From assembly GCA_014529675.2 (NCBI GenBank), contig CP076040.1, positions 2,747,894 through 2,811,893 of the forward strand: DNA of 64,000 bases. Direction: 5' to 3'. The DNA is from Opitutia bacterium ISCC 52. Lineage in GTDB: Bacteria > Verrucomicrobiota > Verrucomicrobiia > Opitutales > UBA2995. The position numbers and the translations under genes are program-made. The notes beneath the pieces are model-generated. The model saw nothing but the letters and a program-made list of their open reading frames with translations, had not been told where the DNA came from and did not search any database. Below are positions 6,493 through 28,119 of this stretch, piece by piece (within the stretch, counting starts at the first letter, position 1; every line of letters begins with the position of its first letter).

Positions 6493-6537
6493 ACAAGTTT
6501 AGCCCCTTTGCTATATTTATCCAATACCCCGAAATAT

Positions 6538-8043
6538 ATGAACAAAAGACTTCTTCTTCCTATTCTCTTGTCGGCTCTTACTGCCTGTCTACTACCGGCA
6601 GCCAAGCAGCCTAACATTCTATTTATATTCGCAGACGATCAGAGCTCGCGAACGATTAGTAGTTATCCAGAATCCTACGAGTGGTCGCATACCCCCAACA
6701 TCGACCGCCTGGCGGAAACCGGCATTCGCTTTGAGCATGCTTACATGAGTTCGTGGTGCATGCCAGCCCGAGCCATGATGCTCACCGGATTGCAGCAGCA
6801 CGATATACCAAGCCTTCACATGGAAGGACCCTATCCCGGTGCGGCCTACGACCCCGACGAGATGCAGTTTTGGCCCAAGCATTTAAAAGAAAACGGCTAC
6901 ACGACCGGTCATGTTGGCAAATGGCACACAGCGAACGACACTGCCTATGGCCGCGCCTGGGACTACCAATATGCCTGGGTCCGGCCCGTCCCCACTCCAG
7001 GAAATTCACGCGAGTATTACGTAGACCAAACCATCATTGAGAACGGTAAAAAAATTGGTCCAGTCGATGCTTACGCGACCGACAACTATACCGATCGCGC
7101 CATTGAGTTCATCAAAGGTGACCATCGAGACGATGATAAACCCTGGTATCTATGGCTTTGCTATACCGCGGTTCATGGACCCTTTACTCCGGCTGATCGA
7201 CATTTGGAAGAATACGACGGTGTCGACATCCCAGAACCCGCCGACCTCTACCCACCACGTCCCGGAAAACCTGAATATTCCGGAACAACCAGCCGATACA
7301 AAGCCGACGATAAAGGAATCGCTCGTTTGTATTCAAACGGAAGATACGGCGAGTCTCTCTACGATGGAACTAGGCAATACCACCAGGCAGTCATTGGAAT
7401 CGATGAGAACGTAGGCCGTCTCATTCGCACCCTAAAATCCACCGGACAACTGGAGAACACCCTGGTCGTCTATACAGCCGATCAAGGATTTGCCTGGGGA
7501 CAACATGGCTTTCGCCACAAACTAGCTCCCTATGCCGCCAATATCCGTGTTCCCTTTATCGTATCGATGCCAGGAACGGTCACCGAGGGTGAAGTCTGCA
7601 CCTCACCTGTCGGAGGCATAGACCTCATTCCTACCTTCTACAAATTTGCTGGCATTGATCTGCCCTGGAACATGCACGGCCGTGATCTTACCCCACTATT
7701 TAGACGACCAAATCGAAAATGGGATCACCCACTATTCCTGACATACACAGCGCGTTCATATCGTCCAGATACTCATACTATTCAAAAGAAAGAGGAACTT
7801 CCTGGCCAGGTTCCCTGGTATGGATTTGTGATAAAAGATCGCCTCAAGTACATCCAAACGTTCATCGAAGGAGAAATCCCGGAACTCTACCATATCGACA
7901 ACGATCCGCACGAACTGCACAATCTGGCGCTGATGCCACAGTATCGTACTCAGGTCAAAAAACACCAGAAGCTGTTGGTTTCGGAACTTAAACGAACCAA
8001 TGCACAATTTGTAGATTCGCTACCTACGGTGAAAGGGTTTTAG
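6538..8043 (+). CDS. Secreted sulfatase, heparan N-sulfatase-like
   Basis: 501 residues from the ATG at 6538. A longer in-frame TTG at 6508 would place ten extra residues before the signal peptide, so the ATG is preferred. The signal peptide is about residues 1-22. Metal-binding ADD is at 32-34 and the formylglycine motif CMPAR at 74-78, with Cys74 as the modified residue. TADQGFAWGQHGF carries further metal and catalytic residues, and the C-terminus has ELYHIDNDPHELHNLA. CMPAR instead of CxPSR and the overall order recall sulfamidase/N-sulfoglucosamine sulfohydrolase-like members. Follows the small lipoprotein and is convergent with the next sulfatase. Substrate unknown. Confidence 0.92.
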   Translation: MNKRLLLPILLSALTACLLPAAKQPNILFIFADDQSSRTISSYPESYEWSHTPNIDRLAETGIRFEHAYMSSWCMPARAMMLTGLQQHDIPSLHMEGPYPGAAYDPDEMQFWPKHLKENGYTTGHVGKWHTANDTAYGRAWDYQYAWVRPVPTPGNSREYYVDQTIIENGKKIGPVDAYATDNYTDRAIEFIKGDHRDDDKPWYLWLCYTAVHGPFTPADRHLEEYDGVDIPEPADLYPPRPGKPEYSGTTSRYKADDKGIARLYSNGRYGESLYDGTRQYHQAVIGIDENVGRLIRTLKSTGQLENTLVVYTADQGFAWGQHGFRHKLAPYAANIRVPFIVSMPGTVTEGEVCTSPVGGIDLIPTFYKFAGIDLPWNMHGRDLTPLFRRPNRKWDHPLFLTYTARSYRPDTHTIQKKEELPGQVPWYGFVIKDRLKYIQTFIEGEIPELYHIDNDPHELHNLALMPQYRTQVKKHQKLLVSELKRTNAQFVDSLPTVKGF

Positions 8044-8069: not shown

Positions 8070-9716
8070 CTAATCGTGCGGATGCGGCATCCAATCGGTA
8101 TAGATACCCTGAGCATTTCGCCCGGCCTCAATTTTGTCCCAAGGAATCACCCCCACTCGTTTTGCCCAAGTGTGGTATTTATCCAGTAACTCTTTGTGGA
8201 GCTCAGGTTGATCCGCCGATAGATCATTTAATTCCGTTCGGTCGACCTCCATGTCATAGAGCTCCCAACTCTCACGATCCCAGCGCTTAACCAGTTTCCA
8301 TTTACCATCACGGTAAGCACAGTTTCCTTCGTGCTCCCAGGCTAAGGGCGGGCGATCAGATATCTGAGAGTCAAAGGTCGTACGAAGACTACTTCCCTCC
8401 TGAGGCTGAATGGACAATCCATCCCTTTCCTTCGGCCATTCAGCACCACTCACATCTACAATTGTAGCCATGATGTCCATCAACTGGCCGGTCTGGTGCC
8501 GCAGCTCCCCACGACTTTCAAATCCTTTGGGCCAATGAGCGACCAATGGAGTCGCAATCCCTCCCTCGTGCACAAAATGTTTATACTCACGGAATGGAGT
8601 ATTTGAAAGGTTCGCCCAGGCCACGCCATAGCTTTGAAAATTGGTTTCATCTCCAGGCATTACTTGAGGATCATTCCCATGCTGCATCACTCTTCCATCG
8701 CGTGTATGCGCCCGACACGAAAGAGGTTTAGCCCTCCCCTCACCTGAAGGTTTTTCGTAAGGAAAGAACGTATCAAATATCTCCTCTGCACAGGCACCGT
8801 TGTCAGATAGAAACAGAATCAGGGTGTTCTCGAGTTCTCCCTGTTCTTCCAAGGCATCCAGCATTCTTCCAATCCCTTGATCCATAGAATCAACCTGAGC
8901 CGCATACACTTCCATCCGGCGCTCCTGCCACGCTTTATCCTTAGTATCTCCCCAATCCGGTTGAGTTGAATCTCTCTTGGTCAATTCAGTATCCGGTTTC
9001 ACGATACCTATGTCCTCCATGCGTTTTAAACGCTGCTCACGCAATACGTCCCAGCCTTCGCTGAACCGGCCTTTGTATTTTTCAATATCTTCCTTCTTTG
9101 CATGCAGAGGCCAATGCGGAGCCGTGTAAGCTGTATATAAAAAGAAAGGTTTATCCGAATCGTTTTCCTTGTGCTCACGGATAAATTGGCATGCATGATC
9201 CGAGACATCGTCCGTAAAGTAGTAGTCGCTGTCTTGAGGTGGATCGATATTTTTGCGATCTTGAGTCAATGTTGGCGGATCGTAGTAACTGGCAGCTCCA
9301 CCCGTAATTCCGTAAAAGCGATCAAAGCCACGTTCACAGGGCCAGTTGGATCCGTCACCGTGTTCCTCCAACAATTGCTTACAAACATGCCACTTGCCCG
9401 AAAGGTAGGTATTGTATCCACCTTGCTTCAACACCTCGGCAATAGTCACACACTGTTTAGATAGGTCACCCCGATAGCCATCGAGATCATCGTCAAAATG
9501 AGCCATGTGGCCGATGTCTACCTGATGGGGGTTCATTCCGGTCAGCAAACTGGCGCGAGTCGGGCAACAACGAGCCGTATTATAAAACTGTGTGTAGCGA
9601 AGCCCTTGTGCCGCTAATCGATCGAGGTTCGGGGTATCCATTTCGCCGCCATAACAGCCAATGTCAGAATAGCCCATATCATCGGCTAGAATGAGGATTA
9701 TGTTAGGTTTCTTCAT
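8070..9716 (-). CDS. Sulfatase without signal peptide (arylsulfatase A-like)
   Basis: 548 residues. The core begins at residue 3 (KPNIILILADDMGYSDIGCYGG), with no signal sequence and no in-frame upstream ATG near the start, so the enzyme appears cytosolic; the other complete sulfatases here are secreted. The formylglycine motif CCPTR is at residues 50-54 (Cys50). FLSDNGACAEE and HEGGIATPLVAHWP supply further active-site residues, and the C-terminus reads ELYDMEVDRTELNDL. It is the last gene of a leftward operon after an enolase-superfamily gene (19-base gap), an aminotransferase and an aldehyde dehydrogenase. A cytosolic sulfatase in a sugar-acid operon suggests that a small sulfated sugar or sugar acid is desulfated after uptake; that is inference. 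Confidence 0.9.
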   Translation of the reverse strand: MKKPNIILILADDMGYSDIGCYGGEMDTPNLDRLAAQGLRYTQFYNTARCCPTRASLLTGMNPHQVDIGHMAHFDDDLDGYRGDLSKQCVTIAEVLKQGGYNTYLSGKWHVCKQLLEEHGDGSNWPCERGFDRFYGITGGAASYYDPPTLTQDRKNIDPPQDSDYYFTDDVSDHACQFIREHKENDSDKPFFLYTAYTAPHWPLHAKKEDIEKYKGRFSEGWDVLREQRLKRMEDIGIVKPDTELTKRDSTQPDWGDTKDKAWQERRMEVYAAQVDSMDQGIGRMLDALEEQGELENTLILFLSDNGACAEEIFDTFFPYEKPSGEGRAKPLSCRAHTRDGRVMQHGNDPQVMPGDETNFQSYGVAWANLSNTPFREYKHFVHEGGIATPLVAHWPKGFESRGELRHQTGQLMDIMATIVDVSGAEWPKERDGLSIQPQEGSSLRTTFDSQISDRPPLAWEHEGNCAYRDGKWKLVKRWDRESWELYDMEVDRTELNDLSADQPELHKELLDKYHTWAKRVGVIPWDKIEAGRNAQGIYTDWMPHPHD

Positions 9717-9735
9717 GGTATAGATATATAACAGC

Positions 9736-10947
9736 CTACGACCGAGCGAGTAGACCGGTCTTGAGGTAATGAGATTTACGTTCCCATTTAATAGGAATCT
9801 TGCTTCCGCGCTGGAGCGCGTCTGTGTCGAACTCGATCCCCAGTCCTGGTCCAGAAGGAGGAGCCATCAACCCATCATCATCCAGGTTAAAAATCTCTTT
9901 GTTCTTCACATAAAACAGCCAGGGGTTCTCACCAAGCTCCTGAGCCGCAGCATCGTTGTAGTGAATTCCATCGGCACATTCCAACAGAAAGCCACTTCGA
10001 CTTGTAACCATAGTCTGGTAAATCCCCATGAAAGCGATGGCCGACAATGGACAGTGTGGAGCAACCGCTAATCCAGCTGATTCTGCGATGGCCGCAATTC
10101 GTTTCAAATTCGTCAGCCCACCTACATGGACCATATCAGGCTGAAAAATATCTACCCCCCGATTGGCCGCCAAGCGGAAGAAGTCCGGAGCCCCAAACAT
10201 GCGTTCCCCCGTGGCGATGGAAATACCTCCTGCTGCCTGACGGATAAACGGCAGCTCATGTTCGTAAGCAGGCTCTACTGGTTCTTCGACGAACAACGGA
10301 TTGTAGGGACGGATGGCATCGATAAATTTGCGAGCAGTTGCCGGCTTCAACCGACCATGACCATCGTAGGCGACTGAAACATTTGAAGGCAGTGATTCGT
10401 GCAGCGCCTTGGCAACCGTAGTGGCATGCTGAATACCACCATGCACATCAATCGGCCCCATCACGGGACATGCATTTAGCTTCAACGCGCAGACATTGCT
10501 TTCTTTGATTACGTTCAACGCCATCTCTACGGCGGTATCGGGATTCGGAACATCTCCACCCACCCAGCGATAGTAAGGCAGACCGTTCGGGTGAAGCAGC
10601 CCTCCAAATAATTGGTTAATCGGAACTCCCAAGTTCTTACCGAGGATATCCCATAGAGCCGTCTCGATTCCAGCTGCCATACTGCGTTGAACAGGGCTAT
10701 TACTGTAAAAATCGTGACTCAAAAAGTCCTGCACCACAGAAATCCGATTGGCATCTTTCCCGATAAAAAAGGACGCCATATCGCGGGCACAGGCCATCTG
10801 TGTTTCCACATGACTCTCCAAGGTTATATCGCCGTAGCTTTCTCCTTCATCCGTTATGACTCGAACCACGGCAAACCGCGGAGGAAGCGTAAAGGCTTCA
10901 ATGGCTTTGATGAGATTAGGCTTAAGCTTATCACTTGGAATACTCAT
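9736..10947 (-). CDS. Enolase-superfamily sugar-acid dehydratase or cycloisomerase-like protein
   Basis: 403 residues with the mandelate racemase/muconate lactonising enzyme layout: an N-terminal capping domain and a TIM barrel with KLNACP, VAYDGHGRL, FVEEPVEP, IATGERMFG, QPDMVHVGGLTN and APHCPLS. The Asp, Glu and Glu at successive strand ends are the Mg ligands. DGHGR and the late HCP His are like galactonate dehydratase-type members that abstract a proton next to a carboxylate. It is cytosolic. Third gene of the leftward operon, 51 bases after the aminotransferase and 19 before the cytosolic sulfatase. It probably dehydrates or isomerises an aldonate (galactonate, fuconate or similar). The exact substrate cannot be read from sequence. 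Confidence 0.85.
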   Translation of the reverse strand: MSIPSDKLKPNLIKAIEAFTLPPRFAVVRVITDEGESYGDITLESHVETQMACARDMASFFIGKDANRISVVQDFLSHDFYSNSPVQRSMAAGIETALWDILGKNLGVPINQLFGGLLHPNGLPYYRWVGGDVPNPDTAVEMALNVIKESNVCALKLNACPVMGPIDVHGGIQHATTVAKALHESLPSNVSVAYDGHGRLKPATARKFIDAIRPYNPLFVEEPVEPAYEHELPFIRQAAGGISIATGERMFGAPDFFRLAANRGVDIFQPDMVHVGGLTNLKRIAAIAESAGLAVAPHCPLSAIAFMGIYQTMVTSRSGFLLECADGIHYNDAAAQELGENPWLFYVKNKEIFNLDDDGLMAPPSGPGLGIEFDTDALQRGSKIPIKWERKSHYLKTGLLARS

Positions 10948-10998
10948 GAGACTTTGGGCTATAAGGTATGTCTAAATTTTTGGGCTGTTCGCCTTAAA

Positions 10999-12171
10999 TC
11001 ATGCTAATTGGCTAAAGAATCGTTCCATTCGATCGAGGCCTTTCACAATCTGTTCCATGCTCGTCGCATAACTGATCCGAACGTAATCGTCTGCTCCGAA
11101 AGCCAGTCCAGGAACCGCAGCTACATTTTCCTCCTCAAGCAGCCGCTCGCAGAATTCAGAAGACTTGAGTCCAGTACCGGAAATATTGGGGAAAAGATAG
11201 AATGCCCCCTGACTCTTATAACAGGTTATTCCCGCCATAGCAGTAAGCCTGTCGTGTGCATAGGCCCGTCGTTCGGCAAATGCTTTCATCCAGCCTTGCA
11301 GATGATCCATGGGTTCATTTAACGCGACTACCCCGCCCTTTTGCGCAAAGGAGGTGGGATTGCTCGTGCTGTGGCTTTGCAGAGCTGAGATTTTCTTAGC
11401 GATCGCCTCGGGCGCAGCAATAAAACCCAATCGCCAACCCGTCATACTCCACGCCTTGGCCAAGCCGTGAACAATGATCGTGTTCTCCTGGTGCTCCGGT
11501 GAAAAGGAAGCCACGCTCTTGTGGACTGCACCGTCATAAAGCAGGTGCTCGTAGATCTCATCGCTCATGATGAGGACATTTTTCTCCACGGAAATATCGC
11601 CAAGAGCTTTAATCTCATCAGGCGTATAAACGGCCCCGGTAGGATTGCTTGGAGAATTGAGAATAAACAATCGGGTTTTATCTGTGATAGCATCCCGCAA
11701 TTGATCGGGTGTAACTTTAAAGTCCGTCTCGTCACCCGCCTCAATGACCACCGGAGTAGCTCCAGCAATCTTCACAATCTCCGGATAGCTCAACCAGTAA
11801 GGAGCAGGCACGATCACTTCGTCCCCTTCCTCACACAACACCATCATTACGTTAAAGACAGAATGCTTACCGCCACAGTTCACCACGATCTGACTAGCCT
11901 TATAATCTAGATCATTTTCTCGTTTGAACTTGTCGGCAATCGCCTGCCGCAATTCGGGTATGCCGGCTGCTGCTGTGTACTTAGTAAACCCGTCATCAAG
12001 CGCCTGCTTGGCGGCTTCCTTAATAAAGTCGGGCGTATCGAAATCGGGCTGCCCAGTTCCAAAGCCAACGACATCAATGCCTTCGGCTTTCATTTCCTTG
12101 GCTTTGGCATCTATCGCCAGCGTGACGGAAGGAGCAATCGACTCAGAGCGTTGTGAAAAATGTGGTTTCAT
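10999..12171 (-). CDS. Aspartate-type aminotransferase (PLP, fold type I)
   Basis: 390 residues, usual length for class Ib aspartate aminotransferases. Recognisable: GTGQPDFDTPDFIKEAA and KYTAAAGIPELRQAIA at the N-terminus, LNSPSNPTGAVY with the conserved Asn (about 176), SDEIYEHL with the PLP-ring Asp (204), GLAKAWSMTGWRLGF with the Schiff-base lysine (239), and a late YVRIS with the substrate-carboxylate Arg. It is cytosolic. It lies between the aldehyde dehydrogenase (21-base gap) and the enolase-like gene, in the same direction. It could be a general aspartate transaminase. In this operon it may instead transaminate a pathway 2-oxo acid, such as sulfopyruvate to cysteate; that is inference only. 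Confidence 0.92.
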   Translation of the reverse strand: MKPHFSQRSESIAPSVTLAIDAKAKEMKAEGIDVVGFGTGQPDFDTPDFIKEAAKQALDDGFTKYTAAAGIPELRQAIADKFKRENDLDYKASQIVVNCGGKHSVFNVMMVLCEEGDEVIVPAPYWLSYPEIVKIAGATPVVIEAGDETDFKVTPDQLRDAITDKTRLFILNSPSNPTGAVYTPDEIKALGDISVEKNVLIMSDEIYEHLLYDGAVHKSVASFSPEHQENTIIVHGLAKAWSMTGWRLGFIAAPEAIAKKISALQSHSTSNPTSFAQKGGVVALNEPMDHLQGWMKAFAERRAYAHDRLTAMAGITCYKSQGAFYLFPNISGTGLKSSEFCERLLEEENVAAVPGLAFGADDYVRISYATSMEQIVKGLDRMERFFSQLA

Positions 12172-12192
12172 AATTATTATTCTATTTAGTAA

Positions 12193-13617
12193 CTAAATAC
12201 CTCCAAAAGAAACGTGTTTGGTTTCCAGATAAGCTTCAACACCTTCTGATCCTAATTCGCGACCCCAACCACTTTGCTTAAATCCTCCAAAAGGACAATT
12301 GCTGGTTGCGGGAACCGATTCATTGATACCGATGGTTCCGGCTTCAAGCTGCTCGGCCAATCTCATGCTTCGATTCAAGTCATTGGTGAAAGCATAGGCG
12401 GCCAGACCATATTCCGTGTCGTTTGCCTTCTTGATCACTTCCTCTTCCGTATCGAAAGACAATACCGGTGCAACGGGTGCAAAAATTTCCTCTGACATAC
12501 AGCGCGCTTCGACAGGAATATCAGACAGGACTGCGGGCGTCATAAACACCCCTTGGCCATCGACCACCTCGCCACCACAAAGCAGCTGGGCTCCTTTCTC
12601 AACCGCATCCTGGATAAACTCCAACGCTCCTGACCTGCCTGCCTCATCGATCAAGGGTCCGATTTCCACGCCTTCCTCTAAACCGTAACCGACCTTTAAG
12701 GATTTTGTGCCAGCAACAAATTTTTCGACGAAGGCATCAAAAATCGATCGTTGGACGTAAATGCGATTGGATCCGATGCAAGATTGGCCGGTGTTGCGAA
12801 ACTTTGTGATCAAGGCTCCTTCAACCGCTTTGTCCAGATCGGCATCCTCAAACACGATCAAAGGCGCATTGCCTCCCAGCTCTAATGACAACTTAGTACA
12901 TGTGGTGGAAGCACCTTGGATCAGCTTTTTACCCACCTCAGTAGAGCCTGTGAAAGAGATTTTTCGACAAAGTGGATTCTCCAACATTTCACCGGCAATC
13001 TCAGACGCCTTCCCGGCTACTAACTGAAAAACACCTTTAGGAAATCCAGCCGCTTCGATGCACTCTGCTAATTTAACTGCGCAGATGGGCGTAACAGAGG
13101 CAGGTTTCAAAATCACAGGACAACCCACCGCAAGCGCCGCAGCTACCTTGCGAAGGGATAGCACCAGAGGAAAATTCCAGGGCGCAATGGCACCGACTAC
13201 GCCTATTGGTTGTTTGAGTATCATGTGTCTTCTCCCAGGAGCCTGGTGAGGCACGTTCCTCCCATAGCTTCTTCTAGCTTCTTCAGCAAACCAGCGGATA
13301 TGGTCGATCGCCATACCAACCTCGCCTTTACTCTGCGGGAGCGGCTTGCCGTTCTCCAGAGTGATATCATGGGCGATCTCATCCGCTCGACGACTCAGCT
13401 CTTCCGCCAATTTCAGAAGGAGATCTCCGCGCGACATTCCTGTGGTCGCAGCCCATTCCAATCGGACGGCTTCCGCGTCTTCTATTGCTTTGCGGACTCC
13501 AGCACGATCGACCGTGGATACCTCGGCAATCACAGTTCCGTTTCCTTTGTCACGGACGGTCAGCTTTTCATCACTCTCGATCCATTCTCCGTTTAAAAAC
13601 AAGCCGTAAGTATCCAT
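12193..13617 (-). CDS. NAD(P)-dependent semialdehyde dehydrogenase, succinate-semialdehyde dehydrogenase-like
   Basis: 474 residues from the ATG at 13617. The frame is open to a TTG 36 bases upstream, but the ATG gives the expected N-terminus MDTYGLFLNGEW. It is an aldehyde dehydrogenase of the GabD type: APWNFPLVL and ILKPAS in the cofactor fold, FTGSTEVGK, LSLELGGNAP with the general-base Glu246, and NTGQSCIGSNR with the nucleophile Cys280. It is cytosolic. It heads a leftward operon with aminotransferase, enolase-like and sulfatase genes, back-to-back with the transaldolase gene. In sulfoglycolytic bacteria, sulfolactaldehyde dehydrogenases are commonly annotated as succinate-semialdehyde dehydrogenases, so this is a candidate for that step. 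Plain semialdehyde oxidation is equally possible. Confidence 0.9.
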   Translation of the reverse strand: MDTYGLFLNGEWIESDEKLTVRDKGNGTVIAEVSTVDRAGVRKAIEDAEAVRLEWAATTGMSRGDLLLKLAEELSRRADEIAHDITLENGKPLPQSKGEVGMAIDHIRWFAEEARRSYGRNVPHQAPGRRHMILKQPIGVVGAIAPWNFPLVLSLRKVAAALAVGCPVILKPASVTPICAVKLAECIEAAGFPKGVFQLVAGKASEIAGEMLENPLCRKISFTGSTEVGKKLIQGASTTCTKLSLELGGNAPLIVFEDADLDKAVEGALITKFRNTGQSCIGSNRIYVQRSIFDAFVEKFVAGTKSLKVGYGLEEGVEIGPLIDEAGRSGALEFIQDAVEKGAQLLCGGEVVDGQGVFMTPAVLSDIPVEARCMSEEIFAPVAPVLSFDTEEEVIKKANDTEYGLAAYAFTNDLNRSMRLAEQLEAGTIGINESVPATSNCPFGGFKQSGWGRELGSEGVEAYLETKHVSFGGI

Positions 13618-13744
13618 AGTTTTTCTTTTTTGTCGTAACTCCGCTAAAGCCAATTCAACTTTAATTCTTCGTGCAAGTTAACTCTAAGATAATTGAGCTG
13701 CTCAAATCCTCCAAGACGAGCGAATCAATCATTCCCCATCCATT
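13618..13744. promoter_or_regulatory. Divergent intergenic region between the two catabolic operons
   Basis: These 127 bases separate the leftward dehydrogenase operon from the rightward transaldolase operon, so both promoters and any shared operator must lie here or in the 5' coding ends. I see an AT-rich stretch and no convincing long inverted repeat. No regulator gene is adjacent. Confidence 0.45.
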
Positions 13745-14407
13745 ATGAAATTATTTCTTGATAGCGCCATAACAGAGGAAATCGCCCACGCACTTGAAGC
13801 GTGGGACATGGACGGACTCACAACCAACCCGAGGCATGTAATGGTTTCCGGAAAACCGTTTCGAACCGTCATCGCTGAAATCGCCGAAATAGTGAAAGGC
13901 ACAGACAAGCCGGTGAGCGTGGAAGTGAACCCACACTTTACCGATTGCAAGGACATCGTTGAGCAAGGGCGTGAGCTTGCAGCACTCTCTCCGAATTTCG
14001 TCATCAAGGTCGGTGCGTGCGAAGGTGGGTTCACCGCCATTCGGGAACTTGCCAATGACGGAATTCGAACCAATGCCACTCTAATCATGTCCGTGGCACA
14101 AGCCTGGCATGCTGCCCGAGCAGGAGCAGCGTTCATCAGTCCATTCATAGGCTGGAAGGACCAGTTCGGCGATTCACCCGATACCTTTATTGCGGACGTT
14201 AGGACGATGCTTGATAAATTCGGTTACGAATCAGAAATCATTGCCGCCGCTGTCCGCAATGCGAAGCAGATTGGAGATGTGGCGATCGCCGGAGCCCATT
14301 GCGTCACCGCCGGATTAAGCGTTTACCAGGAAAGCTTCAGCAATCCCTATACGACTTTTGGCGAGGGTGTTTTTCAAAACGCCTGGGATCAGACACCTGA
14401 AACTTGA
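13745..14407 (+). CDS. Transaldolase / fructose-6-phosphate aldolase family protein, sulfofructose-transaldolase candidate
   Basis: 220 residues, the length of the short FSA/TalC-type transaldolases. The Schiff-base lysine is Lys88 in NFVIKVGA and the catalytic Asp is Asp6 in FLDSA; NATLIMSVAQAWHAARAGA and ISPFIG follow the family pattern. Two active-site motifs differ from ordinary members: TTNPRH at 26-31 (usually TTNPS) and FIGWKDQFGD at 134-143 (usually FVGR-DD). From memory, the sulfofructose transaldolases of Firmicutes also have an R-H and W-K variant, but I cannot check this here. It is cytosolic and the first gene of the rightward operon, 36 bases before the isomerase-like gene. It would cleave a six-carbon ketose, possibly 6-deoxy-6-sulfofructose, to a three-carbon unit. 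Confidence 0.85.
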   Translation: MKLFLDSAITEEIAHALEAWDMDGLTTNPRHVMVSGKPFRTVIAEIAEIVKGTDKPVSVEVNPHFTDCKDIVEQGRELAALSPNFVIKVGACEGGFTAIRELANDGIRTNATLIMSVAQAWHAARAGAAFISPFIGWKDQFGDSPDTFIADVRTMLDKFGYESEIIAAAVRNAKQIGDVAIAGAHCVTAGLSVYQESFSNPYTTFGEGVFQNAWDQTPET

Positions 14408-14443
14408 ATCCATCATCTGAATACCTGCATAGACATCTCTACC

Positions 14444-15811
14444 ATGAGCGCTCACACACCAGATAGCCCGATCAAGCTGGGTCTTCTCTTTTTGGGACGC
14501 AAACGCCCGGGATTCGATATGGAATGGGGTGCCGCTATGGAGCTGAAGGTTCGTGAAGCGGTCAATCAATCGGCCTTTGAAGTTTTTGAGCCTTCCGAGA
14601 AAGCAGTAGATGACGCATCTCTGAGAAAAGTAGTCGGCGAGTGTAAGGAAGCAGGTGTTCAAGCACTCGTTCTATTACAAACCACAATGGCTGACGGCCG
14701 CATGGCTCCAACCCTGGCACAGATCTGGCCAGATCCACCCATATTTTGGGCAACCCCAGAGAACCAGAATGGAGACATGATCAGCTCCTGTTCTTTGGTA
14801 GGAGCGCATGTTTGGGCCACCTCGCTCAGGCAAATGGGCCGCTCGTTCGAAATTTTAAAAGGAGACCCCGAGGTTGAAGAGACACTGGAAAAGTTGGACA
14901 CCTCGGTTCGAATTACCGGGATCATCCATAAACTTCGTCATACTCGAGTCGGTGTAATCGGCGGACAAGCTCCGGGTTTTCTTTCAATGACGACCGATCC
15001 TTTCGTCATGCATCGCAGTCTGGGAGTCCAACTACAAACCTACAGTTTGATTGAATTCGAAAATGTAGTGAAGGAGATTCCTGAAGAAGCAGTCAATGCG
15101 GACGTCGAAAAAGCGAAGGCACTGGGGCTTGAATACAAGGACGCCTCGGAAGATGACCTGCCCATGGCCTCCCGTCTTTACTTGGCTATGTGTCATTTCA
15201 TTGAGACGGAAAACCTGGACGCACTGGGCGTACGTTGCTGGCCCGAAATGCCCAACACATTTGGTCAATGGCCCTATCTGGGAATGGCACGTTTGGCTGA
15301 TGAAGGATTTGCCATTGCCTGTGAGGGCGATGCCGATGGAGCGATCGGAGCTCTCATAGGAGAAATGTTTGGTATGGGTCGCTGCTATCTTTCGGACTGG
15401 CTTGAGCACGATGAAGAAACGATCACTCTCTGGCACGTCGGTGCTGCACCCCCTTCACTTTGCCCCCCCACCGGCGAACCGGGTGCAGCAAAACTCGCCA
15501 AGCACTTTAACATTCAAAAACCCACGGTGCTGGAAGGTGAAATCAAAGCTGATAGGCCTCTTACCCTATTTCGTCTTTGGAGATACGAAGGCGAGTATCA
15601 CCTAAGCTCCTGTGATGCGATAAGCGAGAAACCTCGTCGTAAGCTGATGATGAGTAATGGCCAGGCACGCCTGCTCAATCGAAACCCCAATGAGTGGTTC
15701 GAAGACATGTGTTATGCAGGCATGCCCCATCACCTGAATGTATTTTTTGGAAATCACTCCGCCAAATTGAAACGTTTCGCCCGAGTGGCTGGCATTCATT
15801 GGCACGACTGA
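14444..15811 (+). CDS. L-fucose/L-arabinose isomerase-like protein, aldose-ketose isomerase candidate
   Basis: 455 residues, cytosolic. The N-terminal half has Rossmann-like segments (IKLGLLFLGRKRPGF, GVQALVLLQTTMADGR, TRVGVIGGQAPGF) and the C-terminal half is beta-rich, as in L-fucose/L-arabinose isomerases. NLDALGVRCWPEMPNTFG and FAIACEGDADGA match the stretch that supplies the metal-binding Glu and Asp of these enzymes. It follows the transaldolase gene by 36 bases and precedes the threonine-synthase-like gene by 43, so the three are almost certainly co-transcribed. An aldose-ketose isomerase upstream of a transaldolase is exactly what a sulfoquinovose to sulfofructose route needs. It could also isomerise another sugar. 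Family call is moderate. Confidence 0.75.
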   Translation: MSAHTPDSPIKLGLLFLGRKRPGFDMEWGAAMELKVREAVNQSAFEVFEPSEKAVDDASLRKVVGECKEAGVQALVLLQTTMADGRMAPTLAQIWPDPPIFWATPENQNGDMISSCSLVGAHVWATSLRQMGRSFEILKGDPEVEETLEKLDTSVRITGIIHKLRHTRVGVIGGQAPGFLSMTTDPFVMHRSLGVQLQTYSLIEFENVVKEIPEEAVNADVEKAKALGLEYKDASEDDLPMASRLYLAMCHFIETENLDALGVRCWPEMPNTFGQWPYLGMARLADEGFAIACEGDADGAIGALIGEMFGMGRCYLSDWLEHDEETITLWHVGAAPPSLCPPTGEPGAAKLAKHFNIQKPTVLEGEIKADRPLTLFRLWRYEGEYHLSSCDAISEKPRRKLMMSNGQARLLNRNPNEWFEDMCYAGMPHHLNVFFGNHSAKLKRFARVAGIHWHD

Positions 15812-15854
15812 AACCATCTACAAGGATAACACTTAGACTCAAAAGCTCCCCTAC

Positions 15855-17111
15855 ATGCCCACCAACGATAATCTTACCACCGAACACCCTACCTTCGTCT
15901 CGCACCTCGAATGTGGAATGGAAGGCGATCACTATGAGGCCGACACCATTCACGGCCTTTCCAAAGCCGGAAAACCGCTTCTCGTAAAATACGATCTGAA
16001 TGGTATTCAGAATGCGGTTACGAAGGAGGACCTCGCTACACGACCAGCAGACCTCTGGCGTTACCGTGAGTTTCTACCTGTGCGCAAGAAGGAGAATATT
16101 GTCAGCCTGGGCGAAATCCACACTCCCATAATCCCCATCCAAAAGTTGGCGACCGGAAGCGGTGAACTGTTGGTTAAAGACGAAGGACGATTACCAACAG
16201 GTTCCTTCAAAGCGCGTGGCCTCTGCATGGCAGTTTCCATGGCCAAAGAATTTGGCCTCAAAAAAGTAGCCATGCCTACCAACGGTAACGCCGGGGCCGC
16301 TCTTGCCGCCTATGGAAGTCGGGCTGGCATGGACTACTATATTTTCTGCCCTGACGATACACCGACGGTAAACGTTCGTGAGATCGCCGTCCAGGGAGCC
16401 AAAGTATGGAGTGTAAATGGCCTCATTAACGACTGTGGGCGCATAGTAGGTGAAGGCAAAGAAGCCATGGGCTGGTTTGACTTTTCAACGCTCAAGGAAC
16501 CTTACCGGATTGAAGGGAAGAAAACCATGGGGCTAGAACTCGCAGACCAGTTAGGCTGGAAAGTCCCGGATGTCATTTTTTATCCAACCGGAGGAGGCAC
16601 GGGTCTCATCGGCATGTGGAAAGCCTTCAATGAACTTAAAGAGATTGGCTGGCTGAAAGGAAAGCTGCCACGCATGGTAGCGGTGCAAGCAACGGGTTGT
16701 GCCCCCATTGTCAAAGCGTATGAAGATGGGACTGAACATGCAGAGCTCTGGCAAGACGCACACACAGTCGCTGCAGGCATACGTGTGCCCGTCGCCGTAG
16801 GCGATTTCCTGATACTGCGAGCTGTTCGAGAAAGCGGAGGTTTTGCCATCGCAGTCGATGACGAATCAATATCCGCAGGTTTGGAAGAGGTCTCCAAAGA
16901 AGAAGGACTCCTCCTTTGTCCAGAAGGAGCTGCGACCTATGCAGCCTACAAACAATCCATTGAAAAAGGACTCATTTCTCCCGATGACTCAGCGGTACTA
17001 TTCAACTGTGCTACAGGACTAAAATACGAAATGCCTCCCGCAGAAGCCACCCTCGATTGTAATCAACCCATTGACTACCAAGCTCTAGATAATAATACTG
17101 CTCAAACGTAA
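15855..17111 (+). CDS. Threonine-synthase-like PLP enzyme (fold type II)
   Basis: 418 residues. The PLP lysine is Lys119 in TGSFKARGL. MPTNGNAGAALAAYG, YRIEGKKTMGLELADQLGW and FYPTGGGTGLIGMWKAF are textbook threonine-synthase motifs of the plant/archaeal type. The N-terminal zinc-ribbon-like part is degenerate: one Cys remains (FVSHLECGMEGDHY) where relatives often have four. It sits inside a sugar operon, 43 bases after the isomerase-like gene and 11 before the exporter, rather than with homoserine genes. Threonine synthase is the default call. Cysteate synthase and other sulfur-related PLP enzymes share this fold, so the context makes a sulfonate-related role worth testing. Cytosolic. Confidence 0.85.
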   Translation: MPTNDNLTTEHPTFVSHLECGMEGDHYEADTIHGLSKAGKPLLVKYDLNGIQNAVTKEDLATRPADLWRYREFLPVRKKENIVSLGEIHTPIIPIQKLATGSGELLVKDEGRLPTGSFKARGLCMAVSMAKEFGLKKVAMPTNGNAGAALAAYGSRAGMDYYIFCPDDTPTVNVREIAVQGAKVWSVNGLINDCGRIVGEGKEAMGWFDFSTLKEPYRIEGKKTMGLELADQLGWKVPDVIFYPTGGGTGLIGMWKAFNELKEIGWLKGKLPRMVAVQATGCAPIVKAYEDGTEHAELWQDAHTVAAGIRVPVAVGDFLILRAVRESGGFAIAVDDESISAGLEEVSKEEGLLLCPEGAATYAAYKQSIEKGLISPDDSAVLFNCATGLKYEMPPAEATLDCNQPIDYQALDNNTAQT

Positions 17112-17122
17112 CCATCTATGCC

Positions 17123-18373
17123 ATGAGCAACGAGTCCAACCGCCCATTCAACATCTTTCTCGACCCGGAGGAGATTCAATCTCTGGATAGCATGGAAGGA
17201 GTACCGGCCTACGACCCAGCGGCAGTAGAGGCTCTACCAGGAGAGCAGTTTCTATCCACGCATTGGCAACGATCACTGCATCGAAGCTTGCATTGGGTCG
17301 GCACTATGGCACCTGGAGTCGTGCTGGTCATGATGCTCGCGGTAGCAGGTAGTTTTCTCGCGAATTGGATTGGCAAACAAGCTTTGGGTTTTGAAAGAAG
17401 TCCATTGAGCCCAGTGCTACTAGCCGTCGTCCTAGGCCTTATCATTAGAAACCTGGCTGGTCTTCCCAAAGCCTACGAAAAAGGGCTCCGACTTTGCTTG
17501 CGCTTCATCCTGAGATTCGGGGTCGCTCTGCTAGGTCTGAAATTAAGTATTTCGGCAGTCGGAAAAATTGGACTGAATGCTCTCCCCATCGTCGTTGTCT
17601 GTATTCTGGTGGCCATTGTTGCAGTGTCGTGGTTGAGCAAGCTGGTAAACGTTCCATCGAGACTGGGAAACCTGATCGCAGTTGGAACCAGTATTTGTGG
17701 TGTATCTGCAGTGATAGCGGCGGGAACTGCGACCCGGGCCGACGAAGATGAGATCAGTTACTCAGTAGCCGTTATAACCCTCTTTGGTGTGACAGCGTTA
17801 TTTACCTACCCTTTTCTTGCCCATTGGTTGTTTAACGGTAATCCCGAACAAATTGGCCTCTTTCTTGGAACCGCCATTCATGATACTTCACAAGTTGCCG
17901 GCGTGGCTCTGATGTATCAGCTCTACTACGATTCACCCGTAACGCTTGAGATTGCCGCCACCACAAAACTGGTACGCAATCTATTCATGGGACTGGTTAT
18001 TCCAATCATGGCATTAGTCCATTATAAACGACAAGCCGTTGTCTCAACTGCAAAAGTACCGATCCCCTGGCTTAAGTGGAGCCAGTGGATTCCAACCTTT
18101 CTCATCGGTTTCATAGCCCTGGCAGCATTCCGGTCGATTGGTGACCTGGGCTCGAAACCATTTGGGCTTCTTCATCCAGAAACCTGAACTGCCTTTATTG
18201 ATATCAGCAGCACGACTTCCATATTCCTCCTCTCAACCGCCATTGCGGCAGTAGGTCTCGGCACGAACGTATCCAAACTGAAGGTACTTGGATGGAGACC
18301 TTTGAGCATTGGTTTTTCAGCCGCAATATTAGTCGGCTTAGTTAGCTACGCCCTTGTTATACTTCTTTACTAA
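17123..18373 (+). pseudogene. YeiH/UPF0324-type putative sulfate exporter, interrupted by an in-frame TGA
   Basis: A polytopic membrane protein of the YeiH (UPF0324) family, often annotated as putative sulfate exporter. A soluble N-terminal extension of about 60 residues precedes the helices. GLIIRNLAG, GVALLGLKLS and GTSICGVSAVIAAG are family hallmarks. The frame stops at TGA 18185-18187 after HPET and continues in the same frame for 61 codons to TAA 18371-18373. The continuation includes AAVGLGTNVSKLKVLGWRP, which is the normal YeiH C-terminus. One change, for example TGG to TGA, explains the break. The 354-residue product would lack the last two helices. It could be a pseudogene, readthrough or a sequencing error. 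It is the fourth gene of the transaldolase operon, 11 bases after the threonine-synthase-like gene. Confidence 0.85.
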
Positions 18374-18499: not shown

Positions 18500-19783
18500 A
18501 TGAATAGACGCGTTTTTCTAAAATCCTCATTTGCGACTCTGGCGCTCCCTGCCCTGGAGTCCGTTTCATCTGCTTTACCTGCAGCTAACGCTAAAACAAC
18601 GGCTTCCACCGGAGCGCCCATGCGCATGGTGTGTGTGGGCAACTCATTTGGCATGTATCCGAAGAAATTCTTTCCGAAAGAAACCGGTAAGAACTACCAG
18701 ATGACCCACCTGCTTTCTCCACTGGAAAAGCACCGGAAAGACTTAACGGTATTCTCACACCTCGATCACGATATCAAAGGCGGGCACTTCTCGGTTCACT
18801 CATTCCTGAGTGGCGTCAAAATGGGAGATGCGAAGGGTATGCCTGAAGGCAATATCAGCATCGATCAACGAGCGGCTGAATACGTTGGGGCCGAAACTCG
18901 CTTCCCCTCTCTGACCATTGGCTCCGAAGACGGACTTCATGGAGGATGCCACATGTGCTGGACACGCACTGGCGTTCGCGTGCCACCGATTACGGGCCCA
19001 CGAGAACTATTTCGAAAATTGTTTATCAACGAAGGTGCTCATGCACAGGAGCAGGCCGCTGACACTTTCGACCTTCGGGGTTCAATCCTCGATGCCATTG
19101 GAGAAGAGGCAAAAAGCCTGGAACACCGCCTGAGTGGCCAGGATCGAGAGAAACTCGATGAATATTTCACATCCGTTCGTGATGTGGAGACCAACCTGGA
19201 ACTCGACAAGCGCTGGTCGAAAGTCCCCAAACCCGATGCTCCGTTTTCAATTCCTGAAGACCGTAGCCTCGTGGAAGACATCCCAGTGCTTTACGATTTA
19301 ATTGCCATTGCCCTCAAAACGGACTCCACACGTGTCGCTTCCTTCGAAATGGCCGGCACGGGTTTTGACACCTCTTTCTTCGGCTACATTTCAGGATATC
19401 ACTTCCTGTCGCATCACGGCCAAAAGCCGGACAAGATTGAAAAACTGATAGAGATCGAGTATTACCAGATGCAACAACTGGCGCGCTTTTTCGACACGCT
19501 TAAATCGATTAAAGAGCCCGACTCGAATGGAAGCCTGTTTGATAATAGCATGATCCTTTTTGGAAGTGGCATGGGTAATGCCAATTCCCATGTAAACGTA
19601 GACCTCCCTATCATGCTGGCCGGCGGCGGATTCAAGCTGGGAGAACACAAGAGCTATCCGAAAGAAAGAAGCAAACGGGTTCCATTGTGCAACCTCTACC
19701 TGTCCATGCTGCAACGCTTTGGAGTTAAAACGGATTTCTTTGGCACAAGCACCGGAACCATTCCGGATCTGGAAGTCGCATGA
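18500..19783 (+). CDS. DUF1552 secreted protein
   Basis: 427 residues. A Tat-like signal is present (NRRVFLKSS, then a mild hydrophobic stretch to about residue 30). DUF1552 proteins of Planctomycetes, Verrucomicrobia and myxobacteria resemble the alkaline-phosphatase/DUF1501 fold; their biochemical role is unknown. Here FSHLDHDIKGGHFSVHSFLSG, CWTRTGVRVPP, LDEYFTSVRDVE and ILFGSGMGNANSHVNVDLP are the characteristic blocks, several rich in His and Asp. It overlaps the following c-heme protein gene by four bases (ATGA), indicating translational coupling, and the same pair recurs at 25.6-29.4 kb. The two proteins probably act together in the periplasm. Confidence 0.88.
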   Translation: MNRRVFLKSSFATLALPALESVSSALPAANAKTTASTGAPMRMVCVGNSFGMYPKKFFPKETGKNYQMTHLLSPLEKHRKDLTVFSHLDHDIKGGHFSVHSFLSGVKMGDAKGMPEGNISIDQRAAEYVGAETRFPSLTIGSEDGLHGGCHMCWTRTGVRVPPITGPRELFRKLFINEGAHAQEQAADTFDLRGSILDAIGEEAKSLEHRLSGQDREKLDEYFTSVRDVETNLELDKRWSKVPKPDAPFSIPEDRSLVEDIPVLYDLIAIALKTDSTRVASFEMAGTGFDTSFFGYISGYHFLSHHGQKPDKIEKLIEIEYYQMQQLARFFDTLKSIKEPDSNGSLFDNSMILFGSGMGNANSHVNVDLPIMLAGGGFKLGEHKSYPKERSKRVPLCNLYLSMLQRFGVKTDFFGTSTGTIPDLEVA

Positions 19784-22269
19784 ACTTGAGAGTTGGTTTA
19801 CTACTAGGCTGCCTGATCGGCAGTTTCTTACCGCTTGCTGAAGGTCGTGAAGACGAGCCGAAGCTGGATGCAGCTTCCTTCAATGCTCACATCCAACCCT
19901 TCCTGAAAGAATACTGCATCCAATGCCATGGACCGGATAAGCAAAAAGGAGACCGACGTTTTGACTCGTTGGCGTATCCGATAGCTGACGACAATGCCCT
20001 CATAGATTTCCAGGACATTCTGGATCTGATGAATCTGGGTGACATGCCACCGGAAGAAGAGGCACAACCGAGCGCAGACGACAGAAAAGCCATTATTAAT
20101 TGGCTCTCTGAGGCCGTGAAAGATGCGTTCGAATCCAAATCGTTTACGGGAGGTGAAACCGTCCTGCGTCGCCTCAACCACAGGGAGTACCTCAATACCA
20201 TAACCGATCTATTCCAGATGGATATGAGTATGTTCGATCCCACGGAAGCTTTCCCGGGAGAACGACTCGTCGAACATCAAGACAATGTGGGCGACACCCT
20301 CGTCACCTCCGGGTATTTATTAAATCGATACATTGAGGCGGCTGATAAAATTGTAGAAAAAGCATTCCCTTTCCAAGAGAAACCCGAACCCCAGTCCTGG
20401 GTCTTCAATAAAGACTTTGAACAACAGTCCGAATTAAACAAGCGCCACATGACTGCTCACGGTCAGCGCTATTTAAATATCTACGAAGCTCCCAATACAG
20501 TTCGGCGCTTTGGAGCTTATGCACCTCTATACGACTTTATTGAAGGGGTTCCAGAAGGCGGCGTTTACAGAATCAGGATACAGGCAGAAGCCGTAAACCG
20601 CTTTCACAACTTCGACCGCAAGAAAGTCATCAATGATCCGGAGGAGCCCATGATGCTCCAGGTAATTCCTTCACATCAGCGCTTCGGCAGTCTTCACCTC
20701 CCTCAACCCTTTGCGCCAGACCTGGGAACATTCGCACTCTCGGACGATGGGCCTGCCTGGTATGAAACGGACGCCTGGCTCGATAAGGGATTCGCACCAC
20801 GGTTTATCTATTTGAATGGATCGATGAATATCCGACCTGCATTCCGTGAGGTAACCGGTCTGATCAAAAAGAACCCTCCGCCCGGAGTTCCCCCTGAAGA
20901 GCTGGAAGAGGATTACATGGCAGTTGCGGTTAAGCATGGTGGCATTCCCCACATAAGAATCCATGAAGTCCAGGTGGAAGGACCGTTCTACCCTGAATGG
21001 CCCACCAAGACCTGGAAGACCATTATTGGGAAGCGCGCGTTCAATAAGAAATATACCTGCCATATAATCCAGGAATTTGCCACACGTGCATACAGACGCC
21101 CAGCTCGAAAAGATGAAGTCAATCGCTTGATACGAGTGGTGGATGCCCGACTCTCAAAAGGACACGCTCCCTTTGAAGCAATGAAGGATGGATTAAAAGC
21201 TGTTCTATGTTCACCCGCCTTTCTTTACCTGGAAGAGGAAACTCAATCTAGAAAAGCTGACCAAATCTCGAATTACGGTTTAGCTTCCAGACTCTCCTAC
21301 TTCCTATGGGGATCCATGCCGGACGAGGAGCTACTCAACTTAGCTCGTCGAAAACGTATCAACCGTCCCTCCGTTCTGCGTGAGCAAATGGATCGCATGT
21401 TGGCCGATTCACGCTCAGACCGATTTATTACAGGGTTTCTCGATAGTTGGTTGACCTTGCGCAGTCTAGGCGATGCCCCACCCGACAGAGGGAAGTTTGA
21501 GTTCTACTATACGGAGAACCTGGAAGATGCTATGCGCAAGGAAACCGAGCTCTATACAAGGCACATGCTGGAGGAGAACTTGAGCCTCACCCACTTCCTC
21601 GACTCCAACTTCACCTTCGCCAACGAAGCATTGGCCACCATTTACGACTGGGATGACATTGAGGGTGACGAGTTCCGAAAAGTCGAAGTTAGTGATCCTA
21701 AACGAGGAGGATTGCTGGGGCAGGCTAGCATACTAACCGTCACCGCGAACGGAGTAGATACTTCACCTGTCCTTCGTGGAGTTTGGCTATTGGAAAATCT
21801 ACTCGGCACACCTCCCTCTCCACCACCTCCTGATGTAGAACCCTTGGATCCAGATGTTCGCGGAGCGACTTCCATTCGAGAGCAATTGAGTAAGCATCGT
21901 GAAACGGCCACCTGCTATGATTGTCACCGTAAGATTGATCCACTGGGATTCGCACTGGAAAATTTTGATGCCGTAGGACAATGGCGCGACCAATATGAAG
22001 ACAAGCTGGAAATTGATTCATCGGGAGAACTCCCAAGTGGTGAATCTTTTAATAATATCGTAGAATTCAAAAACGCGATATTAGGCAAACAGGAGTTATT
22101 CAGTCGGGCACTCACCAATAAAATGCTGTCCTATGCACTGGGTCGACGATTGGAAATTACGGATCGTCCAGAAGTAGATCGTATCCTCGATACCTTAGCG
22201 GAAGAGGGAAACGGATTCAGGGACCTTGTTTATCTAGTGATCACGAGTGAAGCGTTTGGGAGCCCTTGA
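19780..22269 (+). CDS. c-type cytochrome domain protein with DUF1587-DUF1595-DUF1592-DUF1588-DUF1585
   Basis: 829 residues with a signal peptide at about 1-22. The planctomycete-type cytochrome domain has CIQCH at 46-50, a covalent heme site. VLRRLNHREYLNTITDLF marks DUF1587. RRPARKDEVNRLI, LASRLSYFLWGSMPDEEL and RGGLLGQASILTVTANGVDTSPVLRG mark DUF1595, DUF1592 and DUF1588. CYDCHRKIDPLGFALENFD near the C-terminus is a second CxxCH and begins the DUF1588/1585 junction. It is therefore probably a periplasmic redox protein. Its start overlaps the DUF1552 stop by four bases. The function of this pair is not established; PVC genomes with many sulfatases and glycan genes often encode several copies. 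Confidence 0.9.
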   Translation: MNLRVGLLLGCLIGSFLPLAEGREDEPKLDAASFNAHIQPFLKEYCIQCHGPDKQKGDRRFDSLAYPIADDNALIDFQDILDLMNLGDMPPEEEAQPSADDRKAIINWLSEAVKDAFESKSFTGGETVLRRLNHREYLNTITDLFQMDMSMFDPTEAFPGERLVEHQDNVGDTLVTSGYLLNRYIEAADKIVEKAFPFQEKPEPQSWVFNKDFEQQSELNKRHMTAHGQRYLNIYEAPNTVRRFGAYAPLYDFIEGVPEGGVYRIRIQAEAVNRFHNFDRKKVINDPEEPMMLQVIPSHQRFGSLHLPQPFAPDLGTFALSDDGPAWYETDAWLDKGFAPRFIYLNGSMNIRPAFREVTGLIKKNPPPGVPPEELEEDYMAVAVKHGGIPHIRIHEVQVEGPFYPEWPTKTWKTIIGKRAFNKKYTCHIIQEFATRAYRRPARKDEVNRLIRVVDARLSKGHAPFEAMKDGLKAVLCSPAFLYLEEETQSRKADQISNYGLASRLSYFLWGSMPDEELLNLARRKRINRPSVLREQMDRMLADSRSDRFITGFLDSWLTLRSLGDAPPDRGKFEFYYTENLEDAMRKETELYTRHMLEENLSLTHFLDSNFTFANEALATIYDWDDIEGDEFRKVEVSDPKRGGLLGQASILTVTANGVDTSPVLRGVWLLENLLGTPPSPPPPDVEPLDPDVRGATSIREQLSKHRETATCYDCHRKIDPLGFALENFDAVGQWRDQYEDKLEIDSSGELPSGESFNNIVEFKNAILGKQELFSRALTNKMLSYALGRRLEITDRPEVDRILDTLAEEGNGFRDLVYLVITSEAFGSP

Positions 22270-28115: not shown

Positions 28116-28119
28116 CGAA

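Follow-up and report, generated by a model that had tools for sequence, protein, structure and literature searches.

Two divergent operons in the genome of Opitutia bacterium ISCC 52 raise the question of whether they serve the breakdown of a sulfosugar and whether the sulfonate group is released within the same cell. The stretch analyzed (the window; 64,000 nucleotides of contig CP076040.1) covers bases 2747894-2811893 of the single-contig 4.8 Mb genome, and positions are given in window numbering. An initial annotation, made from the sequence alone, had proposed a sulfosugar pathway for the operons at 8070-18187. All eight open reading frames (ORFs), their families and the divergent arrangement were confirmed by place, strand and family matches far beyond chance. 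The locus is probably a sulfoquinovose cluster of the transaldolase type (sulfo-TAL) that is extended to desulfonation within one cell. Sulfo-TAL-type sulfosugar catabolism is a prediction well supported by sequence comparison, and its completion to sulfite via cysteate by a pyridoxal phosphate (PLP) enzyme is likely. The following features were assigned:

13745-14407, plus strand: predicted 6-deoxy-6-sulfofructose transaldolase (SF-TAL), from the BmSF-TAL match in the PDB, the tree and the retained residues
14444-15811, plus strand: putative sulfoquinovose isomerase with AraA/FucI fold, distantly SftI-like, from the SftI model, the AlphaFold fold and the context
15855-17111, plus strand: threonine synthase-like PLP enzyme, proposed cysteate sulfo-lyase, distinct from the housekeeping ThrC, from linkage and sulfonate contexts
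17123-18187, plus strand: YeiH-type proposed sulfite exporter (PF03601), ended by an in-frame TGA
12193-13617, minus strand: proposed sulfolactaldehyde dehydrogenase, an aldehyde dehydrogenase (ALDH) of the succinate-semialdehyde dehydrogenase (SSADH) type, from the SSADH model, SSADHs in the PDB and orthologues in relatives
10999-12171, minus strand: class I/II aminotransferase (PF00155), proposed sulfopyruvate/cysteate aminotransferase, 21 bp behind the ALDH gene
9736-10947, minus strand: enolase-superfamily, galactonate dehydratase-like enzyme (PF13378 and PF02746), no role assigned
8070-9716, minus strand: S1-type sulfatase (PF00884), last gene of the ALDH operon, no obvious signal peptide by eye, no role assigned
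13618-13744: divergent intergenic region, presumed from the gene order to be a shared regulatory region

Within each operon the genes follow in the order listed, with intergenic gaps of 11-43 bp on the plus strand and 19-51 bp on the minus strand. The ALDH gene starts at the ATG at 13617 or at an alternative TTG at 13653, which leaves a divergent gap of 127 or 91 bp. The gene families, the SF-TAL membership of the aldolase and the conserved neighborhood were established by comparison with relatives (loci labeled L, genomes labeled G). Against the sister species (L003), dN/dS was 0.012-0.042 in the locus genes at a dS of 0.40-1.38 (sulfatase over 398 codons only), and the values of the seven genes other than yeiH indicate that the locus is under selection.

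The transaldolase and the isomerase

The closest solved relatives of the aldolase in the PDB were three BmSF-TAL sequences (243-245 bits), and the next family followed at 136 bits. The tree was built from 23 rows, from which the second aldolase copy of L009 (L077) and that of L010 (L078) had been removed. The window aldolase, eight other Opitutales copies and BmSF-TAL formed one clade on a long stem (support 100/99). Outside this clade were six plasmid-borne fructose-6-phosphate aldolase-like rows and four canonical transaldolases, as were the aldolases from L009, L010 and L044, which are 36-39% identical. In SF-TAL, D6, E61 and K89 were described as the triad, N111 and S133 as sugar-orienting and a WAR motif as sulfonate-orienting, and W138R as the mark of a fructose-6-phosphate aldolase-like enzyme (PMC11659671). 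All of D6, R30, E61, K89, N111, S133 and W138 are retained in the window aldolase. W138 and R30 were found in all ten rows of the SF-TAL clade and in none of the 13 others, which have R138 and a T or S at position 30. By sequence the aldolase is assigned to the SF-TAL clade, and the tree placement suggested as a check by the initial annotation separates it from the fructose-6-phosphate aldolases sampled.

The isomerase had been described as fucose/arabinose-type. No FucI model of NCBIfam matched it, and its only matches were the SftI sulfoquinovose isomerase model NF048012 (156.6 bits, cut-off 700) and a weak one to AraA. The best PDB fold matches of its AlphaFold model (pLDDT 86.4) were arabinose isomerases (TM about 0.8, 15-18% identity), followed by D-arabinose/fucose isomerases. 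The AraA/FucI fold could thus be kept, whereas by neither model nor fold is this a true fucose isomerase. Searched as a source of SftI references, the plasmid collection gave matches of 22-26% only. The isomerases of the nearest relatives within the Opitutales are 76-94% identical to the window copy. The fold family appears to be right, and sulfoquinovose is the putative substrate from the gene context.

A non-sulfonated sugar pathway, in which an arabinose/fucose-type isomerase acts together with a fructose-6-phosphate aldolase, would agree with this fold and with the isomerase relatives L045-L050, which have no sulfonate marker nearby. It is nevertheless extremely improbable in view of the aldolase tree, the residues W138 and R30, and the GH188-, SuyAB- and SorA-like neighbors in relatives. 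The same clade and residues, together with the relatives' GH188-, sulfolactate dehydrogenase-, SuyAB- and sulfite dehydrogenase-like genes, support the sulfosugar pathway that had been suggested for this locus. The ALDH reached 530 bits on the SSADH model (cut-off 646), and its best PDB matches were SSADHs (463 bits). An orthologue lies beside the SF-TAL gene in L013 (79.5%) and L094 (81%), and a function as sulfolactaldehyde dehydrogenase is proposed.

The threonine synthase-like enzyme and the proposed desulfonation

The PLP enzyme passes the "threonine synthase" model NF006050 (656 bits, cut-off 303) and stays below the cut-off of the ThrC equivalog TIGR00260 (159 bits, cut-off 167.1). A separate ThrC elsewhere in the genome passes TIGR00260 (254.7 bits), carries a Thr_synth_N domain and adjoins a gene with AA_kinase and ACT domains, read as aspartokinase type. 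The identity of the locus copy with ThrC was rejected for this reason, and by sequence the PLP enzyme is a paralogue, not the housekeeping threonine synthase. The PLP tree comprised 29 rows, was rooted at the midpoint and does not include the window genome's ThrC (no match at the threshold). In it, nine Opitutales copies formed a clade (100/100) that was joined with Alphaproteobacterial copies (100/99). The AlphaFold model of the enzyme (pLDDT 43) was discarded.

The linkage of this gene was analyzed in 273 genomes of the order at a threshold of E<=1e-60, where shared descent means that the genomes are not independent. The isomerase was found in six and the PLP enzyme in 20 of them. PLP copies of 85-100% identity occurred only in the same six isomerase genomes and adjoin the isomerase in all six. 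SF-TAL at 85% or more was present in five of these six and in G339, there 500 bases from the contig end. Among ten genomes, some of them the same assemblies as in the survey, seven carry an SF-TAL of 85-98% and two have aldolases of 38-40%. Furthermore, 21 loci around isomerase relatives were compared (the window, L003-L013, L043-L050 and L094). Where the isomerase is at least 68% identical, the PLP enzyme is its neighbor in eight of eight relatives (L003-L007, L013, L043, L094), and in L010 (isomerase 59%) a 54% PLP enzyme lies three genes on.

A SerA-type 2-hydroxyacid dehydrogenase gene directly follows the PLP gene in L004, L007, L010, L013, L043 and L094, and one of 39% directly precedes it on the Chlorohelix plasmid L101. 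A remnant was found in L006 and none in the window or in L003, and L005 cannot be judged. L009, L011, L012 and L044 have no PLP gene and carry SuyAB-like, Ldh_2 (ComC-like) and SerA-type genes, a set which fits the SuyAB/ComC/SlcC set described for sulfolactate breakdown (PMC12421959). The SuyAB-like pair consists of a protein of 92-93 amino acids (with a SAF domain in L009) and a galactarate/altronate dehydratase-type protein of 387-389 amino acids. Among 34 stretches, 19 carry the PLP gene, four the SuyAB-like genes, none both and 11 neither, with L093, L095 and L096 repeating L004, L003 and L005; the 11 include L008, which is just 3.6 kb long, as well as L090-L092 and L097, which lack the isomerase. 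L044 comes from the same taxonomic order as the window and has an isomerase of 51% identity, with SuyAB-like genes in place of the PLP gene. A blastp search for SuyAB within the 64 kb window gave no match. It is mainly because the SuyAB-like genes replace the PLP gene at the same metabolic position that the desulfonation is assigned to the PLP enzyme. The four SuyAB-like loci span Planctomycetota, Acidobacteria and the order of the window and carry isomerase and ALDH genes; in L011 a phosphofructokinase adjoins the isomerase, and L009 has a class II aldolase.

Outside the Opitutales, PLP relatives of 51-72% identity occur in sulfonate-type contexts in Azospirillum, Aliarcobacter and Chlorohelix. 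The closest plasmid relatives (71-72%) are found in ten Azospirillum records, five of which were examined. Four of these (L099, L102, L123, L124) encode SsuA-type binding proteins, an ABC ATPase, the PLP enzyme, an Ldh_2 protein and a 2-hydroxyacid dehydrogenase; this run is perhaps for sulfolactate or cysteate use. In the fifth (L098), SsuA-type proteins and a 2-hydroxyacid dehydrogenase lie 6 kb off, with no adjoining Ldh_2 gene. In Aliarcobacter cibarius the PLP gene comes after ssuD and the genes of a sulfonate ABC transporter, and cysteine transport and cysteine synthase genes are near. The Chlorohelix region (L101, 8415-24264) contains an isomerase, a pyrophosphate-type phosphofructokinase, an SSADH, a phosphoglycerate dehydrogenase (PGDH)-like protein, the PLP enzyme, a sulfite reductase and siroheme genes. 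It resembles a sulfosugar pathway of the kinase type, here in a phototroph and combined with sulfite reduction; a GH188 identity of its Gfo/Idh protein was not supported. In G271 and G091, genes for a YeiH-like protein, the PLP enzyme and a dicarboxylate/glutamate-type symporter stand in a row without a sulfosugar marker (L105, 6664-10187; L106, 6506-10020), possibly a minimal cassette for cysteate uptake and desulfonation.

Some of these neighbors would also suit a beta-replacement by the PLP enzyme, either as a reverse cysteate synthase-type reaction or in sulfur assimilation into cysteine, instead of cysteate lysis. Besides the cysteine genes of Aliarcobacter and the sulfite reductase and siroheme genes of Chlorohelix, the cysteate synthase model TIGR03844 gives a match of 67.5 bits, far below its cut-off of 324.9. 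The conserved loop of the enzyme is GGGTG, which we take to be eliminase-like, and exporter and sulfite dehydrogenase genes suggest free sulfite. A beta-replacement is therefore considered distinctly unlikely. SorA/SorT-like sulfite dehydrogenases are encoded in L006, L007 and L013, with a 32% relative in L010. The window genome has a SorA-like copy (79%) at genome position 2061179, in whose neighborhood no other sulfosugar gene was seen by eye.

For the entry into the pathway, a candidate was found in L004, which is the same assembly as G409 and belongs to the genus of the window. The best solved relatives of a Gfo/Idh protein in its cluster were 8zn9, 8qc3 and 8qc2 (196-207 bits; next 65), of which 8QC2 is the structure of a GH188 sulfoquinovosidase (PMC11465081). 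In GH188 the sulfonate residues R166, L170 and K172 are spaced R-x3-L-x-K, and the same spacing can be seen by eye in the alignment of the L004 protein with 8zn9. A 78% copy of this protein is encoded near the SF-TAL gene of G601. Importers in relatives are of the ABC sugar, SSS and TRAP types.

In the proposed pathway, the isomerase would convert sulfoquinovose to 6-deoxy-6-sulfofructose, from which the transaldolase would transfer the non-sulfonated C3 unit to glyceraldehyde-3-phosphate, yielding fructose-6-phosphate and sulfolactaldehyde. The latter would be oxidized by the ALDH to sulfolactate, the sulfonate analogue of 3-phosphoglycerate, and sulfolactate to sulfopyruvate by a SerA-type dehydrogenase (SlcC-like in relatives; no candidate was identified in the window genome). 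The aminotransferase would then form cysteate, which the PLP enzyme would split into pyruvate, ammonia and sulfite. Sulfite could be exported by YeiH, oxidized by the SorA-like dehydrogenase encoded elsewhere, or both. All substrates, above all that of the PLP step, are what we infer from families and neighbors. Cysteate is the most economical reading of the intermediate: sulfolactate is implausible as a PLP substrate because it has no amine, whereas cysteate is plausible with an aminotransferase in the operon. On balance we lean towards the view that some of the "threonine synthases" of the PRK08197 branch form a class of cysteate sulfo-lyases not described so far. These would replace ComC and SuyAB and complete, within single Verrucomicrobiota cells, a transaldolase-type route that leads from sulfoquinovose to pyruvate plus sulfite; Chloroflexota, Alphaproteobacteria and Campylobacterota would make use of the same module.

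Weighing of the proposed pathway

A number of observations weigh against a complete conversion of sulfoquinovose to sulfite. On the SftI model, three other homologues from the same phylum (263-271 bits) and the Chlorohelix copy (343) exceed the window isomerase (156.6); because of the three homologues the score was rejected as proof of the substrate. G289 encodes the isomerase and the PLP enzyme with only a canonical transaldolase. The aminotransferase is part of the cluster only in the window and L003 (20 loci), and no convincing sulfolactate dehydrogenase was found in the window genome, where the best SerA-like protein reached 39% and Ldh_2 proteins 31-32%. Furthermore, neither a GH31 match (PF01055; the control gave matches in 6 of 14 genomes) nor a GH188 orthologue (best 60.5 bits with an SqgA-like query) was detected in this genome, and no importer is among the cluster genes. 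The names SlcC, ComC, SuyAB and SorA were given by family, architecture and neighborhood, and the curated-model scores of the relatives' genes are all below cut-off: PGDH 336 bits (cut-off 454), L-sulfolactate dehydrogenase 281 (cut-off 500) and SorA 235 (cut-off 600), with the SuyB-like proteins matching only galactarate dehydratase (156-159, cut-off 731). The Azospirillum Ldh_2 protein scored 364 on the malate/lactate/ureidoglycolate model (cut-off 336) and 197 on the sulfolactate model, and the SsuA matches there stay below cut-off.

Several PLP relatives count against it too. In 14 genomes of the order, PLP copies of 48-57% identity (348-450 bits) were found; no sulfonate marker was seen in eight of ten loci examined, and five of these have purine-type genes close by (read by eye; AIR-synthase or amidotransferase domains confirmed in two). 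No sulfonate-type neighbor was seen for the Sphingomonas and Microvirga copies either, although wrong-frame ORFs may hide neighbors in GC-rich loci. The threonine synthase-like PLP family is mixed.

Also to be counted here is yeiH, whose frame of 416 codons is cut off by a TGA after codon 354; at this place the sister species has TGG (Trp). The frame beyond this TGA is open and conserved for 61 codons, with a dN/dS of 0.044 against the sister compared to 0.037 for the whole gene. A genome-wide reading of TGA as Trp was rejected, as TGA ends 17 of the 42 window ORFs, yeiH included. The yeiH gene of L003 (8603-9850; window 17123-18370) has its own TGA at another Trp codon. These stops may be fresh mutations, assembly errors or sites of read-through. 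The product matches PF03601 over the cut-off (186.9 bits, model positions 4-262 of 304) and TIGR00698 below it (127.7, cut-off 232.6). The YeiH-type exporter family proposed earlier was thus retained, whereas the gene is not full-length. YeiH was reported to confer sulfite resistance in Salmonella.

The mixed family bears on the possibility of an ordinary sulfo-TAL pathway ending at excreted sulfolactate, with the PLP enzyme as a second threonine synthase nearby by chance and YeiH serving general sulfite stress. SF-TAL, isomerase and ALDH would be the three sulfo-TAL enzymes, the NF006050 score is high, and most of the 48-57% relatives examined have neutral neighbors. Against this, the gene adjoins the isomerase in all six carriers, mostly has a SerA-type gene next to it and is missing from the loci with SuyAB-like genes, and a housekeeping ThrC already exists. 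This explanation is unlikely, although it retains a real chance.

The missing genes could also reflect a decay of the pathway in this lineage, with the SerA-type gene lost, YeiH truncated and no sulfoquinovosidase left. The lack of GH31 and GH188 in the genome and of a SerA-type gene in the operon agrees with this, as do the yeiH TGA and the remnant in L006. The dN/dS of 0.012-0.042 for all eight genes and the conservation of the 61 codons past the TGA argue against decay, to which we give a small chance. As replacements for the sulfolactate step, an Ldh_2 and 2-hydroxyacid dehydrogenase gene pair at 4015434-4017330 was rejected since its neighbors encode UxaC and a PfkB kinase; for the Ldh_2 gene at 1043719 no related neighbor was seen by eye.

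Alternatively, the enolase-superfamily enzyme could stand in for the missing SerA-type gene, either by dehydration of sulfogalactonate or sulfogluconate in an Entner-Doudoroff (ED) side branch or by direct sulfite elimination from sulfolactate. It scored 271 bits on the galactonate dehydratase model (cut-off 311) and 228 bits with PDB entry 3rr1. Enolase and sulfatase genes follow the ALDH and aminotransferase genes in the same orientation. Only the window species and L003 have them at this place, and these are the two PLP loci in which YeiH stands close behind the PLP gene and no remnant of a SerA-type gene was seen. The sulfogalactonate dehydratase SfcF, whose function was shown in vitro, was assigned the same Pfam pair PF13378-PF02746 (PMC12421959), so that the enzyme may be a sulfo-aldonate dehydratase. 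The cluster genes include no sugar dehydrogenase, lactonase or 2-keto-3,6-dideoxy-6-sulfogluconate aldolase, however. This alternative is rather unlikely, the more so as we know of no precedent for direct sulfite elimination in the enolase superfamily.

Several features around the operons were noted in addition. L044 has a 45% fragment match to the window sulfatase after YeiH, which is weak given how abundant sulfatases are. A second sulfatase (6508-8043, profile-scanned) and a class II aldolase/adducin protein (5017-5829), with a 42% relative in the Azospirillum B510 region L098, lie just outside the operons. Further sulfatase-like ORFs were seen by eye and clustering at 2-724, 714-2723, 23435-24769, 31276-32703, 59002-60561 and 62296-63846, and on the same basis the gene pairs at 18500-22269 and 25647-29379 were labeled DUF1501-like and PSCyt-like. 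The ORF row at 40399-46382 resembles a molybdenum xanthine dehydrogenase-type purine cluster (by eye). A ROK-family gene, present near the isomerase in several relatives, was not found in the first 30 kb of the window.

Comparison with known sulfonate pathways

Sulfoquinovose is an abundant sulfosugar of plants and algae, and its production was put at about 10 billion tons per year. Sulfo-TAL was characterized mainly in Firmicutes (PMC12890257) and described to release sulfolactate, 2,3-dihydroxypropane-1-sulfonate (DHPS) or derivatives (PMC11659671; PMC11968277), which pass to other bacteria (PMC11659671). With the sulfo-TAL (sulfo-SFT) systems of Priestia/Bacillus and Eubacterium rectale, the locus shares a putative sulfoquinovose isomerase, an SF transaldolase with W138 and a dehydrogenase of the SSADH type. 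It differs in its Verrucomicrobiota host, the proposed desulfonation genes in the cluster and an isomerase remote from SftI, and mutarotase, DUF4867 and GH31 genes are not among its cluster genes. Verrucomicrobiota are named only as a gut phylum in the available passages of a sulfoglycolysis study (PMC11968277), and those of a report on a predicted calf-gut pathway draw no link to them (PMC12426017). A Verrucomicrobiota cluster that retains the C3 sulfonate and releases sulfite itself would, if confirmed, add a new group to the sulfur cycle.

Common to the SlcC/ComC-SuyAB route of sulfolactate biomineralization in Chromohalobacter and Paracoccus (PMC12421959) and the loci compared here are a SerA-type (SlcC-like) gene in relatives and sulfite as the end product. 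The isomerase-PLP loci contain no Ldh_2/ComC-like or SuyAB-like genes, whereas L009, L011, L012 and L044 represent the SuyAB-like variant. With the sulfofucose ED pathway (SfcF), the Pfam pair of the enolase is shared, while the remaining ED genes were not seen among the cluster genes. In titles and abstracts of the open-licence literature, no threonine synthase-like enzyme was tied to sulfolactate or cysteate breakdown. If the proposed function is true, a set of "threonine synthase" annotations become candidate C-S lyases.

The L-cysteate sulfo-lyase CuyA belongs to the D-cysteine desulfhydrase family. The reaction proposed here would be identical to that of CuyA, a PLP-dependent elimination of sulfite from cysteate, whereas the window enzyme is of the threonine synthase branch. 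It scores within the PRK08197/NF006050 threonine synthase-like family, but the genome has another ThrC, and the context of the gene is that of sulfonate catabolism.

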